Shown here piece by piece: positions 42,251-47,634 of a stretch of DNA of 48,143 bases. The stretch lies in assembly GCF_027484545.1 (NCBI RefSeq), contig NZ_JAIXST010000051.1, positions 1 through 48,143 on the forward strand, written 5' to 3'. Positions within the stretch are counted from its first letter, which is position 1; every line of letters begins with the position of its first letter. A model generated the notes under the pieces. That model was not told the DNA's origin. It saw only the letters and a program-made list of their open reading frames with translations, and did no database searches. A program made the translations under genes and the position numbers. This DNA comes from Runella sp. Its GTDB lineage: Bacteria; Bacteroidota; Bacteroidia; Cytophagales; Spirosomataceae.

Positions 42251-42434
42251 TCTGTCATTCCCCTTTTTCGTCATTCGTTAAGTTCTTTTACGGTTCAACC
42301 GACATTTCCCTACGCTTTACCCAGTAAAACCAACGCTTTAGTCCCTGTTTTTGGGGATTTATGTCCCAATTCTTTAATTTTAGCCCTTTAAAAAATGGTA
42401 CATTTATACCTCTTTTCACTTTCCCACTCATAGA

Positions 42435-45400
42435 ATGTATAACCGCCCGCTGGTTTTTTTATTTTTATTCCTAATCGGTTGGGTTCCGAAAGAAGCCTTT
42501 ACGCAATCCTCAGATATTTCATTTCAACACCTCAGCCCCGAACAGGGGCTTCCCATCCACTACGCTACGGGAATTGTGCAGGATACCTCGGGCTTTATTT
42601 GGATTGGAACAATGGCTGGATTGGCGCGTTACGATGGGGTTCGCTGCAAGGTCTATGACCACGACCGACAAGACCCCTACTCACTTTCCGACATTCTTGT
42701 CAGATCGGTTTTTCTGTCAAAAAACGGGACTTTGTGGGTAGGAACGCAACACGGATTCAATCGTTTCGATTTCAAAACCCAACGCTTTGAACGGTTTCAT
42801 TTTACAAAATACAGCGAGCGTTCTGACTACATTCGCTGTATTGAAGAAGATTCGCGGGGAAAACTTTGGTTGGGTTCCGCCAATGGGCTCATTATTTTTG
42901 ACCCTTAAACGAAACAATCCGAACTTTTAAAACTCCCCACCGATGCTTCTTCCAAAGCATTGGTGTATTCGATCCGTACGCTGTTGGTAGATCGAACTAC
43001 GATGTGGATTGGTACGGATATGGGGCTTTATCGCTACGATATTGAAAGCAAGTCGTTTCAGGTATTTTGCAAAAGTGACGAATTGGGCAGTATCCCCGGC
43101 AACTCCGTTACAGCCTTGGTGAAGCATCCCAAAACCGGGGACCTTATCGTTGGGAATCGCAATGGTATGATGTCCTCGTTAAATCTTCATTCAGAACATT
43201 TTTCAAAAATTGACATCAGCATCCGAGAATCCAGTGAAATAACCTGCCTGTTTTTTGACAAAAGCGGTAAGCTTTGGGTAAGTACGCGAGGCGACGGCAT
43301 CTTTTACCAGGATGCCATTCAACAAAATTTTATTAATTACCAAAGCGACATCAACAATCCCAACAGCCTGAGTTCTACCTACGTAAAAACTATTTTTCAA
43401 GACCGCTCTGGGGTACTTTGGTTTACGACTTCCTACAAAGGAATAAGCCGATTTAATCCTAATAATCAATCGTTTTCTTCGCCTTTAAAAAATATTGACT
43501 ACAAACCTAAGTCGGCCAACGGAGCTGCCATCAACCGCATTGCCCTCGACAATCAAAATAACCTTTGGCTCGCAACTGATGATGGGTTGCTGTGGGTCAA
43601 TCAAAAAACGAATCAACATAAGATTTATCGGCATGATGATGCTAACTCTGCCAGCCTAACTGATAATTCGGTCAATTGTGTCTTTGTCGATAAAACAGAC
43701 CATGTTTGGATAGGGACACACACTCATTTTCATCACTTAGACCCCAGTACGGGAAAGTTGGAGTACTTTCCGTATTTACCGAATGAAAAAATGCCTTCGC
43801 CGCCGCCACAAATTCCCCGTACTGATTTTTTGGCAGGAAAAAACGTGTACGATATCCACACCACTGGCGACGGGCGCCTTTTTATAGGCACGGAGGAAGG
43901 CCTCACTATTTTTGACCCGCGCACCCGAACTTTTGCCAATCGATTTAATGACGAACGAATCAGACGTTTGCCCATCAATCGGTACAATAGTTTCTTTCTC
44001 GATAGCAAACGAAATCTGTGGGTAGGATGCGGTGTCGATGAGGTGCTTTGTATCACTCCTGATTTATCAAAAGTAACTACCTATCGCTATCAGGAAAACA
44101 ACCCAAAAAGCCTTCCCGATAACGGTGTCATGTCGTTTGCGGAAGACTCAAAAGGAAACATTTGGATGGGTACTGACAATGGTTTGGGCAATCTGGATAT
44201 AAAAACGCAGCTGTTTACCAATTATTCTACCAAAAATGGAATTGCGAACAACTACGTATCGGCGCTGATTCGGGTAGGCAATACCGTATGGATGGGAACG
44301 GCCAATGGGTTAACCCGTTTTAATGACAAAGGCAAACAGTTTGTGTCTTTCGGCAGAGCCGATAATCTCCAGATGCTGTCCGTCGAAACCAAGTCCGTGG
44401 CCAAAGATTCATTGGGTTATTTGTATTTCGGAGGTCTGTACGGGCTGGTGAAATTTCATCCCGATTACGTTAAAACCAACACCTTTGTTCCGCCGATAAC
44501 CATTACTTCGCTGCGGGTGTATGGACAGGAAATGTTGCCAACACTTATTCACCCGTCCGACAACCCGATTAGTCTGGCGTATGACCAAAACGATTTGACC
44601 ATTGATGCAGCAGCGCTCAGTTATGACCATTCAGAGAATAATCTGTATACTTTTTGGCTCGAAAATCTCGAAAAACAATGGAGCTCACCCAGCCATCAAT
44701 CTACCCTAAACTACCTGAATGTGCCTCCGGGCGAGTATATTCTGCACGTAAAAGCGGCCAACAATGATGGTATTTGGAATCCCGTTGCTTATCGTCTTCC
44801 CATAACGATTCGCCCCCCTTTTTGGCAAACCTGGTGGTTCAGAACGTTACTCATACTGGTGATTATGGGGACAGGATTCTACTTCTACCGCCTGCGGGTC
44901 AAAATGATTGAACACGAGCACGCCATCGAAGTGAAATTGTTGGAAGAACAGCGCACTCTTCAAAAACAACTCAATAAAGAGCTCACCGAGAAACTGGATT
45001 ACCAACAAAAATTTGAAAAAGCTCAAACCCAACAGGCCGAAACTGAACGAAAAACCATCCTGCTGGAACGGGAAAAACTCCTGTCGCGCTATCAGAATCT
45101 GGTCAATCAGCTTAATCCACACTTCCTTTTCAACAGTTTGGCCGTACTGGATAGCTTGATTTACAAAGACCATAAGTTGGCCTCCAAGTACCTGCGCCAA
45201 TTAACCAAAGTATATCGGTATCTGATAGAAAACGACGACCACGAAACCGTCACGCTGGAGCAAGAACTGCGATTTGCCCGAGATTTTGTGAGCCTGTTGC
45301 ACATGCGCTACAACGACGGGCTCTGCATAGAAATCCATTTGGACAAAAGTCTGTATTCCAAAAAAGTAGTACCCGTTACGTTCCAAAATCTCATTGAAAA

Positions 45401-45632
45401 CGCCGTAAAACACAACATAACCGCCTTAGAATCACCTTTGTGCATTACAATAAGGGAAGAAGACAACTATTTGGTGTTTAAAAACAATTTACAAAAACGA
45501 GGCTCCGTGAGTACTTCCAATAAAAGAGGACTCAATGATTTCAGGGCATTGTACAGTTATCTGGCCAATCGCCCCATAAAAATTGTAGAAATGGAAAACC
45601 ATTTTACCGTGTACGTTCCCTTATTGGATTAA
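42435..45632 (+). pseudogene. two-component propeller LytS-type kinase, interrupted by an in-frame TAA
   Basis: One continuous frame of 1,066 codons broken only by TAA at 42906-42908 (codon 158). The first part has a signal peptide (MYNRPLVFLFLFLIGWVPKEAFTQ) and three propeller blades (WIGT/WVGT/WLGS). After the stop eleven more blades follow (WIGTDMGLYRYD, IGTEEGLTIFD, WMGTDNGLGNLD), giving 14 = two seven-bladed Reg_prop propellers, then a Y_Y_Y domain, one membrane helix (WFRTLLILVIMGTGFYFY), a coiled coil and a His_kinase core with His896 in NQLNPHFLFNSL and N-box LIENAVKHN; the ATP lid retains KRGL. The next start after the stop would be a TTG at 42960 with no good ribosome site, so two genes are unlikely. 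Either a recent nonsense mutation, readthrough or a sequencing error. The signal would be periplasmic. Confidence 0.85.
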
Positions 45633-45766
45633 CGCCTCATCGGATTATTGGGAAGGATTAAGTCTTTAAATGAACGACTCGAATTATTTTTTTTAAGATA
45701 GTAGATTGCAGTTCATTAATTTTACTCAACAAATTTTAAAAATACCCATTACTCAACCCTACAAAC

Positions 45767-46183
45767 ATGAATGACCAACAAAAGAAACTTGTTCAAACCA
45801 GTTTTGCCCGTATCGTACCCAAAGCAGAATATGCTGCAAAGTTGTTTTACGGTCGGCTTTTTGAAATACTTCCAGAAGTAGAACCCTTATTTAAAAGTGA
45901 CCTTAAAACTCAGGGCATCAAGCTTTTTCAAGTCATCAGTTTTGCGGTTTGCTCGTTAGACAATTTAGACGAACTCCTGCCTATATTACAAGATTTAGGA
46001 CGACGCCATGTAAAATACGGAACACAACCTCAGCATTATGCTTCGGTGGGTGAGTCATTTATCTGGACCTTGGAAAAGGTATTGAAAGATGATTTTACGC
46101 CTGAAATCCGACAAGCTTGGCTGGATATATACAGTTTGATGTCGGCGGCTATGATAGACGCCGCCTACCAAGAAACCCCTTGA
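45767..46183 (+). CDS. single-domain globin (VHb-like)
   Basis: 138 residues. Aligned by eye to bacterial hemoglobins: CD1 Phe42 in VEPLFKSD, distal E7 Gln49 in KTQGIKL, proximal F8 His81 in LGRRHVKYG and the H-helix region QAWLDIYSLMSAAMIDAAY. These are the residues needed for heme and O2/NO binding. There is no FAD/NAD reductase domain and no signal, so it is a free cytoplasmic globin. Its stop is followed after only 5 nt by a kinase gene and then a regulator gene, so it probably works as the sensor part of that system rather than as a classical O2 carrier. NO scavenging is the main alternative. Confidence 0.92.
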   Translation: MNDQQKKLVQTSFARIVPKAEYAAKLFYGRLFEILPEVEPLFKSDLKTQGIKLFQVISFAVCSLDNLDELLPILQDLGRRHVKYGTQPQHYASVGESFIWTLEKVLKDDFTPEIRQAWLDIYSLMSAAMIDAAYQETP

Positions 46184-46188
46184 AATAG

Positions 46189-46827
46189 ATGGAATCGCTC
46201 ACTAACACATCATCCCAAAGCAATGAATTACCCGCAGTACCAGCGAGTGATGCAACCGACTATGGAAATACAATTTCGGATGTTAAATACCAAAATTTAG
46301 TCAGTCAGCTAAATCCACACTTTCTTTTCAATAGTCTGGCCACGTTGGAGAGCCTCATTTACAGTGACCAACGGTTGGCTGTGAAGTTTTTGAGCCAACT
46401 TACCCGCGTTTATCGCTACATTCTGACGACCCGAACTACTCCCTTGGTGAAGCTCTCAGCAGAAATAAATTTTATCAAAGATTATGCAGATTTACTGCAA
46501 ACCCGTTTTGGAAAAGGACTTCAGGTTATCATCAACGTTTCTGCCAAAGCCAACGAGAAGCAGATTGTACCCGCCGTACTGCAAATTTTGGTAGAAAATG
46601 CAACCCGTCACAACATAACTGACCCGGAATCACCACTGATTGTTACTATCAATACAATTGAAGACCAACTTATTATAGAAAACAACCTTCAAAAAAAGCA
46701 AATTTTAGAGCCTCAGCGCAAAGAAGCCCTCAAGAGTTTATGCAATTTATACACGTATTTTTCTCCTGTTTGTATAGAAATTCAGGAAACACCCGAAACA
46801 TTTAAAGTTATATTACCACTCATTTAA
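46189..46827 (+). CDS. sensorless LytS-type histidine kinase with altered ATP lid
   Basis: 212 residues with no membrane segment and no sensor domain; residues 1-32 are a polar tail. The His_kinase core has His44 in NQ/SQLNPHFLFNSLATLES, RVYRYI and the N-box ILVENATRHN. It closely resembles the core of the kinase at 42435 (QNLV-x-QLNPHFLFNSLA). The G1 box is NNLQ as in many Bacteroidota relatives, but the usual G-x-G-L of the second box is QRKEALKSL, with no glycine, so ATP turnover may be weak or absent. It ends 45 nt before the LytTR gene. Likely takes its input from the globin encoded 5 nt upstream. Confidence 0.9.
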   Translation: MESLTNTSSQSNELPAVPASDATDYGNTISDVKYQNLVSQLNPHFLFNSLATLESLIYSDQRLAVKFLSQLTRVYRYILTTRTTPLVKLSAEINFIKDYADLLQTRFGKGLQVIINVSAKANEKQIVPAVLQILVENATRHNITDPESPLIVTINTIEDQLIIENNLQKKQILEPQRKEALKSLCNLYTYFSPVCIEIQETPETFKVILPLI

Positions 46828-46872
46828 AACTTTATCAATTCATTCGTACTCAACCAATAACCTATATTCACC

Positions 46873-47634
46873 ATGAAAGTCCTGATTGTCGAAGACGAAA
46901 TCCTCATCGCCGAACAACTCCAACGAATGTTGAAAGATATTGCTCCTCAAGCAGAGGTATTGGACGTACTGCACAGCGTAAAAACGGCCCGGCGTTGGTT
47001 TATGCAAAATGCGGAACCCGATTTGTTGTTTATGGACATTCAACTTTCCGACGGCATCAGCTTCGATTTATTCAACTATTTTGACATCAAATGCCCCATT
47101 ATCTTTGCCACGGCCTACGACGAATACGCCATTAAAACCTTTAAAGTCAACGGCATTGATTATTTATTAAAACCCATTGACGAAGAAGACCTCATTCGGG
47201 CGCTGGAAAAATTCAAGGCGCTCAAAAAAAACACCCAGATTCCTGCTGACCTGCTTCAAACGTTGGTCAATCACCCGGCACAAAAAGGGAAAATGTACAA
47301 GGAAAAACTCATTGTTCAGCACCGCAACGCGTCGATTCCCATCAATCTGTCGGACGTCACGGTTTTTTACCTCGACCAAGTTATTTACGTGGTGACCAAC
47401 GACGGACAAAAATACATTGCCGAGCAAAACACGTTGGACGAAATTGAAGACATTTTGAACCCGACTGACTTTTTCAGAGCGGGCCGCCGACAGATCATCA
47501 ACCAACAGGCGATTGAAAGCTACAAAGGCGATACATCAGGAAAATTGTTTCTTAAACTGAGAAGTACCCAAATGCCCGAAGTAGAAATCAGTCGCGAAAA
47601 AGCGCCCGTTTTTAAGCGTTGGATAGACCGGTAA
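46873..47634 (+). CDS. LytTR family response regulator
   Basis: 253 residues. The receiver domain has Glu7-Asp8 in LIVEDEILIAEQ, phosphoacceptor Asp55 in LLFMDIQLSDG, ATAYDEYAIKTF and the conserved Lys in YLLKPIDEEDL. The LytTR DNA-binding domain (about 150-250) has FYLDQVIYVVTNDGQKYIAE, then FFRAGRRQIINQQAIESY, the family's DNA-contact strand and turn. It should activate promoters with paired direct repeats. Being the last gene of the globin/kinase cluster and the only LytTR protein in the window, it is the presumed output of one or both LytS kinases. Confidence 0.94.
   Translation: MKVLIVEDEILIAEQLQRMLKDIAPQAEVLDVLHSVKTARRWFMQNAEPDLLFMDIQLSDGISFDLFNYFDIKCPIIFATAYDEYAIKTFKVNGIDYLLKPIDEEDLIRALEKFKALKKNTQIPADLLQTLVNHPAQKGKMYKEKLIVQHRNASIPINLSDVTVFYLDQVIYVVTNDGQKYIAEQNTLDEIEDILNPTDFFRAGRRQIINQQAIESYKGDTSGKLFLKLRSTQMPEVEISREKAPVFKRWIDR

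Follow-up and report, generated by a model that had tools for sequence, protein, structure and literature searches.

A single-domain globin as the probable output of a LytS/LytTR two-component system in Runella

Introduction

Two-component systems of the LytS/LytTR type, such as BtsSR, YpdAB, AgrCA and LytSR, combine a PF06580 kinase carrying an NPHFLFN H box with a regulator composed of a receiver and a LytTR DNA-binding domain, and they use paired direct-repeat operators two turns apart. According to the literature, LytTR sites consist of 9-bp repeats 10-13 bp apart (PMC11347149), RcoM1/CoxC uses three 8-bp repeats 12-13 bp apart (PMC4847170), and the repeats of AgrA are a further example of the LytTR-type layout (PMC4227749).

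Bacterial globins are linked with signaling in the globin-coupled sensors. In AfGcHK and in HemAT the globin and the output are found in the same chain, and sensors of this type belong to another globin family than the protein described below. Separately encoded heme proteins that adjoin a kinase gene are known from the H-NOX/HnoK and NosP/NahK pairs, in which proteins of other folds (HNOB and FIST) were shown to act on the kinase (PMC8846402). Bradyrhizobium Bjgb, a single-domain F-type globin, serves in NO detoxification and is controlled by NasS-NasT (PMC4724949). Among the Hell's Gate globins of Methylacidiphilum, HGbRL carries a fused Roadblock/LC7 domain and has been described as a putative globin-coupled sensor (PMC4476040). 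The control and purpose of the common single-domain bacterial globins are often unknown.

Here, we have analyzed a locus of Runella sp. (Bacteroidota, Spirosomataceae) in which such a globin gene is embedded in a LytS/LytTR system. The window, that is, the whole stretch of DNA analyzed, comprises 48,143 nucleotides and represents one entire contig (C257) of a 7.1-Mb genome. The locus shares with the known LytS/LytTR systems the kinase family and H box, the regulator architecture and, by prediction, the paired operators, but adds a periplasmic propeller sensor, a sensorless second kinase gene and a neighboring globin gene, which is the predicted target. Unlike AfGcHK, it encodes globin and kinase in separate ORFs; unlike HGbRL, its globin stands alone; and like the H-NOX and NosP pairs, it places the gene of a heme protein beside that of a kinase, an action of the globin on the kinase being hypothetical. 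The presumed likeness to Bjgb lies in the globin type and is judged from the kind of neighbors, as the Runella globin falls with proteobacterial globins of this kind in the trees; by contrast, the Runella globin is predicted to be under a membrane sensor kinase and a LytTR regulator of the same operon, with no nitrate genes noted alongside. No report of an association between a globin and a LytS/LytTR system was found in the open-licence literature searched.

Results and discussion

Organization of the locus

An earlier note on this DNA had pointed out three adjoining genes for a globin (GLB), a LytS-type kinase (LYS) and a LytTR regulator (RR). Their positions could be confirmed (Table 1), as could the spacings of 5 nt between GLB and LYS and 45 nt between LYS and RR, and Pfam agreed with the assignments: GLB matched only the Globin family (PF00042, E 5.2e-15), without a reductase domain, LYS matched only His_kinase (PF06580, E 2e-21), and RR contained Response_reg (E 4.7e-14) and LytTR (E 3e-12). 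It was also correct that LYS lacks a sensor or membrane region, as there is no second Pfam domain and the protein contains no hydrophobic segment, the highest Kyte-Doolittle mean over 19 residues being 0.88. The description left out the upstream sensor kinase RPK, whose kinase domain belongs to the same family as LYS (PF06580, E 5.9e-20), and the repeat elements considered below. In the window, RPK is broken after 157 codons by an in-frame TAA (42906-42908), whereas it is uninterrupted (1065-1080 aa) in all 10 Runella relatives that have the operon; the stop reflects either a recent loss or an assembly error.

Table 1 Features of the globin locus in the window
Feature	Positions	Strand	Description	Basis or spacing
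RPK	42435..45632	+	Periplasmic Reg_prop/Y_Y_Y sensor kinase, LytS-type kinase domain at the C-terminus	ORFs, Pfam
GLB	45767..46183	+	Single-domain globin, flavohemoglobin-like (F) family	ORF of 138 aa, Pfam, alignment, trees
LYS	46189..46827	+	Soluble LytS-type kinase domain without sensor	ORF of 212 aa, Pfam
RR	46873..47634	+	Response regulator, receiver plus LytTR DNA-binding domain	ORF of 253 aa, Pfam
Repeats upstream of RPK	42290..42340	+	8-bp box in three direct copies: 42290-42297 ACGGTTCA, 42312-42319 ACGCTTTA, 42333-42340 ACGCTTTA	22 and 21 bp apart
Boxes upstream of GLB	45632..45681	+	Two boxes: 45632-45639 ACGCCTCA, 45674-45681 ACGACTCG	42 bp apart

Conservation of the four-gene order in Runella

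The order RPK-GLB-LYS-RR was kept in 11 of 13 Runella genomes (the window genome and 10 of the 12 others), which are the same 11 genomes in which the globin was present. Among named records, the operon is also carried by those of Runella aurantiaca, Runella defluvii, Runella sp. CRIBMP and one Runella MAG. The two smallest genomes, G005 and G007, contained no globin and no ortholog-level match to RPK, GLB, LYS or RR. Their best matches to LYS (154.5 and 143.0 bits, in frames of 374 and 343 aa, respectively) and to RR (209.9 and 204.8 bits) were at the level of paralogs, and the absence of RPK was judged via a search with the kinase domain alone, with the G005 assembly in 570 contigs. The recurrence of the order across Runella shows that the four-gene neighborhood is not due to chance.

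The gap between GLB and LYS measured 0-5 nt in all 11 operons, and the two genes shared a common frame in 10 of them. A GLB-LYS fusion or stop read-through could be ruled out, since the stop codons at the junction vary among genomes and two consecutive stops stand in tandem in four of the 11. Thus, GLB and LYS are separate genes that are probably translationally coupled, and the earlier view of globin, kinase and regulator as separate genes was borne out, their linkage in Runella being both close and stable.

Origin of the sensorless kinase

LYS has kept the H-box histidine (H44, invariant in 25 alignment rows) and the N box. In a kinase tree of 66 rows, LYS formed a single clade (support 100/100) on a long stem branch (1.15), as sister of the RPK kinase domains from Runella and G030 (93/88), and all RPK and LYS sequences, one truncated RPK included, were united against the other LytS kinases sampled (99/94). 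From the position of its clade, LYS is most simply explained as an RPK kinase-domain copy that lost its sensor; it would have been gained in Runella. The node joining Runella with other genera was weak (80/47).

The globin and its relatives

In an alignment of 22 globins, the residues Phe42, Gln49 and His81 singled out earlier were present and nearly invariant, and Phe27 and Tyr28 were invariant. By comparison with Vitreoscilla hemoglobin, the conserved residues would correspond to the CD1, E7, F8 (proximal) and B10 positions. By sequence, the closest solved structures are those of Methylacidiphilum, namely HGbRL (3wfw, E 2e-32), HGb-I and another Hell's Gate globin (3s1i and 3ubc being the further entries matched; E up to 3e-26), and the match to Vitreoscilla hemoglobin was far weaker (E 1.5e-10).

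Globin trees were built from 204 rows (quick) and 70 rows (careful). The Runella operon globin fell in a mostly proteobacterial clade (100/99) with a Catenovulum sequence (L097) as its nearest neighbor (95/89). The globins linked to the two-component system in other genera occupied a separate clade (32 rows, 96/87) that splits into a larger part of 24 rows (100/99) and a smaller one of eight rows (99/86) that includes L191 and L207. Since the Runella and non-Runella linked globins belong to different clades, the system seems to have kept a globin but swapped its lineage. When both groups, picked after the tree was seen, were forced together, the AU test marginally rejected the constraint (p 0.046 and 0.033), so that a separate origin of the Runella operon globin, i.e. 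a replaced lineage, is marginally favored.

None of the 76 closest non-Runella named loci (from the best 80 of 557 matches) had an RPK, LYS or RR match in the fetched flanks. In part, this is the pattern that the earlier note had expected if its reading were wrong, namely related genomes with the globin but without a kinase beside it. Several loci of GLB kin have neighbors that resemble nitrite or nitrate reductase genes. Among seven long ORFs from these non-Runella loci that were scanned for domains, three contained MCP signaling domains and one, with a cut end, HAMP/PAS. The three are GLB-like F-type globins fused to MCPsignal (L098:7965-10355, L124:5727-7169 and L136:8001-10619), of which the L124 chemoreceptor has two globin domains in tandem; the fourth (L170:1622-3151) combines a GLB-like globin with HAMP and PAS and runs off the contig end. 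As both reductase-like neighbors and chemoreceptor fusions occur, the GLB clade appears to have enzyme-like as well as sensor-like uses. The window genome also encodes a second single-domain globin (L043:9938-10363, contig C212), which is 43% identical to GLB.

Globin genes beside RR-RPK pairs outside Runella

A search of 222 genomes of the family Spirosomataceae gave a globin match in 96, many of the matches being flavohemoglobins (frames of about 400 aa) or globin-NO-synthase chimeras. Around single-domain globins outside the Runella operon, 58 family loci with 64 globin domains were fetched. RR or RPK was located within 3.5 kb of 28 of these domains (22 divergent, four convergent, one on the same strand and one with RPK only), and neither was found within that distance of the other 36, among them those of genus g49. 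A stand-alone LYS beside a globin was not observed in any of the 58 loci, and both LYS and the Runella globin lineage were absent from the nearest system outside Runella (L182). A neighborhood of globin, LytS and LytTR genes, which the earlier note had suggested looking for in Bacteroidota, is kept in Runella (11 of 13 genomes); in the linked family loci outside the genus, the globin adjoins an RR-RPK pair, mostly divergent and without LYS.

In the reverse direction, RR was searched in 25 genomes, 20 of them non-Runella and mostly picked as globin-bearing, with Runella and weaker rows dropped. Among the matches listed for these 20 genomes, 20 of 24 with at least 226 bits lay within 3.5 kb of a globin, versus none of 79 at 169-226 bits. 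Adjacency to a globin was clustered on an RR tree of 60 rows (nine changes versus a shuffled mean of 18.8, with sampling centered on globins), but did not form a single clade, and the idea that the globin link is defined by the RR tree alone was dropped. The Runella RRs were placed outside the main Reg_prop clade of 32. With this placement and the weak joining node of the kinase tree, there is weak support for treating the Runella system and its counterparts in more distant genera as orthologs.

A globin with an E value of at most 1e-25 was present in 10 of 395 genomes from other parts of the phylum; nine loci outside the order were fetched, and no LytS or RR profile match was seen among the genes shown within 2 kb. 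The 40 order-level loci fetched (L233-L272) contained no family-level RR. One of them (L267) had a LytTR-type RR of 142 bits at 1.5 kb from its globins, and in another (L240) a 442-aa ORF matched the receiver domain weakly (39 bits).

Predicted operators

The repeats upstream of RPK are predicted to be an RR (LytTR) operator, and the two boxes before GLB, the first of which starts on the final base of the RPK stop codon, are the candidate RR operator for GLB-LYS-RR. Conserved islands were visible when 15 divergent globin/RR gaps were aligned, and in Runella, tandem ACG-YTCA-like boxes stood ahead of both RPK and GLB. For counting, the box was written as ACGVYTYR, in direct repeats that were allowed a single mismatch per pair. 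All 11 Runella operons had a pair spaced by 20-23 bp upstream of RPK (dinucleotide-shuffle mean 0.085 of 11, maximum 1), and such pairs were also present in 8 of the 21 divergent globin/RR gaps (with a shuffle mean of 0.225 and a maximum of 2). At this first spacing window, none of the 11 Runella RPK-GLB gaps had a pair; all 11 carry one at 42 bp (eight genomes) or 43 bp (three genomes), a spacing that was added after the spacing histogram had been seen. With 42-43 bp added, a pair was present in 13 of 21 divergent gaps versus 41 of 1244 random 275-bp segments. On both strands of the 48-kb window there were 11 pairs, four of them at the RPK-upstream and GLB-upstream sites. The LytTR layout (paired 8-9 bp repeats about 19-22 bp apart) is present before RPK, and before Runella GLB only at 42-43 bp; on the whole, the layout upstream of both genes fits LytTR sites.

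A box pair preceded 16 of 28 linked family globins versus 6 of 36 unlinked ones. It should be noted that the box was defined partly on the promoters counted, the independent part being the unlinked globins, 30 of 36 without a pair, and the loci outside the alignment. The unlinked globins with a pair include L203:8405-8818, whose promoter is a near copy of that of the linked globin of L205; here the system is found about 4 kb further away, as if by an insertion between them. The second globin of the window genome (L043), which is also unlinked, has a 21-bp-spaced pair 118 bp before its start, with no such two-component system in the 19.5 kb read.

In eight Runella genomes, a two-box pattern with 22-bp spacing gave 28 matches genome-wide versus 20 for the reversed pattern, and it found the operon in five of the six operon-bearing genomes. 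Away from the operon this search was close to chance, and we therefore do not propose a wider regulon. A three-box pattern with three mismatches was discarded as noise, since it missed the operon itself.

Proposed function and alternative explanations

We consider it probable, with moderate confidence, that the locus is a LytS/LytTR two-component system with a single-domain globin as its conserved output and with LYS as an additional kinase gained in Runella. Judging from their families, RPK, a propeller-type periplasmic sensor kinase, would phosphorylate RR, which is predicted from conserved sequence to bind ACGVYTYR boxes arranged in tandem at a distance of about two helical turns. Because such boxes stand before RPK and before GLB-LYS-RR, RR would control the globin as well as its own genes. 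The globin, as a relative of Bjgb and the Hell's Gate globins, may act on NO or oxygen. On the stem of Runella, LYS, the sensorless copy of the RPK kinase domain, appears to have entered the operon along with a globin from another lineage. LYS would most likely tune RR phosphorylation, as a constitutive or globin-influenced kinase or phosphatase, or by pairing with RPK. A dedicated regulator and a predicted operator that were kept despite a change of globin lineage would offer a handle on globin function.

The earlier note had raised the possibility that the globin is the sensor of the system, as a heme-bearing subunit in trans. In this reading, it would bind LYS and gate the kinase or phosphatase activity of LYS on RR according to O2, NO or redox state. 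Several observations agree with this: the sensorless kinase begins 0-5 nt after GLB in every Runella operon, it appears in Runella jointly with this globin lineage and both are missing from the nearest outside system, fusions to chemoreceptor or HAMP/PAS domains occur among globins of its clade, the nearest structure is a putative globin-coupled sensor (PMC4476040), and trans designs exist in H-NOX/HnoK and NosP/NahK (PMC8846402). However, RPK already provides a full sensor kinase, and outside Runella the globin adjoins the RR-RPK pair without LYS. The RR-type repeats in front of the globin gene make it read as a target gene; an autoregulated sensor would look alike, so the two readings are compatible. 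All in all, the globin is more probably a target of the system than its driving sensor, and we regard the trans-sensor reading as unlikely, though not remote. When GLB and LYS were modeled together as a single chain, the prediction had a mean pLDDT of 84.3 and a pTM of 0.61, with a disordered link (pLDDT <50). In a more far-reaching version of the trans-sensor reading, which we regard as about as unlikely, a horizontally acquired Bjgb-like globin and LYS were incorporated at one time into a system that already controlled a globin, and the new globin became both product and cytoplasmic trans sensor, docking on LYS in its holo form and feeding its ligand status back to RR. The earlier claim that a trans heme sensor with a kinase would be a new design was too wide, given the H-NOX and NosP pairs (PMC8846402). 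It would be new for a globin, as judged from the open-licence literature searched; if true, docking on LYS would represent the first globin-gated kinase of separate chains, and the presence of a sensorless kinase beside the Runella globin makes a test of such trans action simple.

A tenable alternative, somewhat short of an even chance, is that LYS has little or no kinase activity and either heterodimerizes with RPK via its conserved dimerization helices or acts on RR as a phosphatase, and that its link to the globin consists only of a common mRNA. LYS is paralogous to the RPK kinase domain, and within Runella its dimerization/H-box segment is 94% identical, compared with 61% for the rest of the ATP-binding half; six of the 11 LYS, that of the window among them, lack the G-box (ATP-lid) glycine, which all nine Runella RPK rows in the kinase alignment retain. 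On the other hand, this glycine is kept in 5 of 11 LYS, the N-box segment of LYS is 90% identical, and RPK has a similar, less steep gradient (96% in the H-box segment versus 75% in the C-terminal part). The neighborhood might also be a functionless, hitch-hiking gene order, as the Runella copies are closely related and their linkage could simply be inherited, but the linkage is found again in many genera, whether divergent, convergent or on one strand, with different globin lineages and with common promoter boxes, which makes this explanation highly improbable.

Other globin loci

Second divergent globin-like genes of up to 279-299 aa were observed near a linked globin at L050:11334-12185 and, as kin of that gene, in L173, L175, L178, L184 and L186. 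In genus g49, TPR proteins of about 590-610 aa with a signal peptide-like start lie before or near the globin (L212-L217, L219-L222 and L224-L227). The 591-aa proteins before these globins had been considered as kinases, a candidate that was rejected because they are TPR proteins with a weak HTH match at best. Proteins of the same type, some with a weak C-terminal HTH, were located near the globin in L046 and in the order-level loci L236, L250 and L251, the last three thus having TPR-type regulators near their globins. In L252, L257, L258 and L267 (family f14) and in L243-L246, L248, L249 and L253-L255, the genes beside the globin have N-termini resembling those of cytochrome cbb3 oxidase parts, or of HemA and a reductase.

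Large proteins with a globin match (about 1360-1530 aa, one of them truncated at 1132 aa) were present in L194 (4765-9348), L193, L195-L200 and L202. The L194 protein, which was scanned, consists of a globin, an NO synthase oxygenase and a reductase; globin-NOS proteins are known from Synechococcus (PMC6104048). In each of L193-L200 and L202, a regulator-like ORF of 228-230 aa lies directly upstream of the globin-containing protein.
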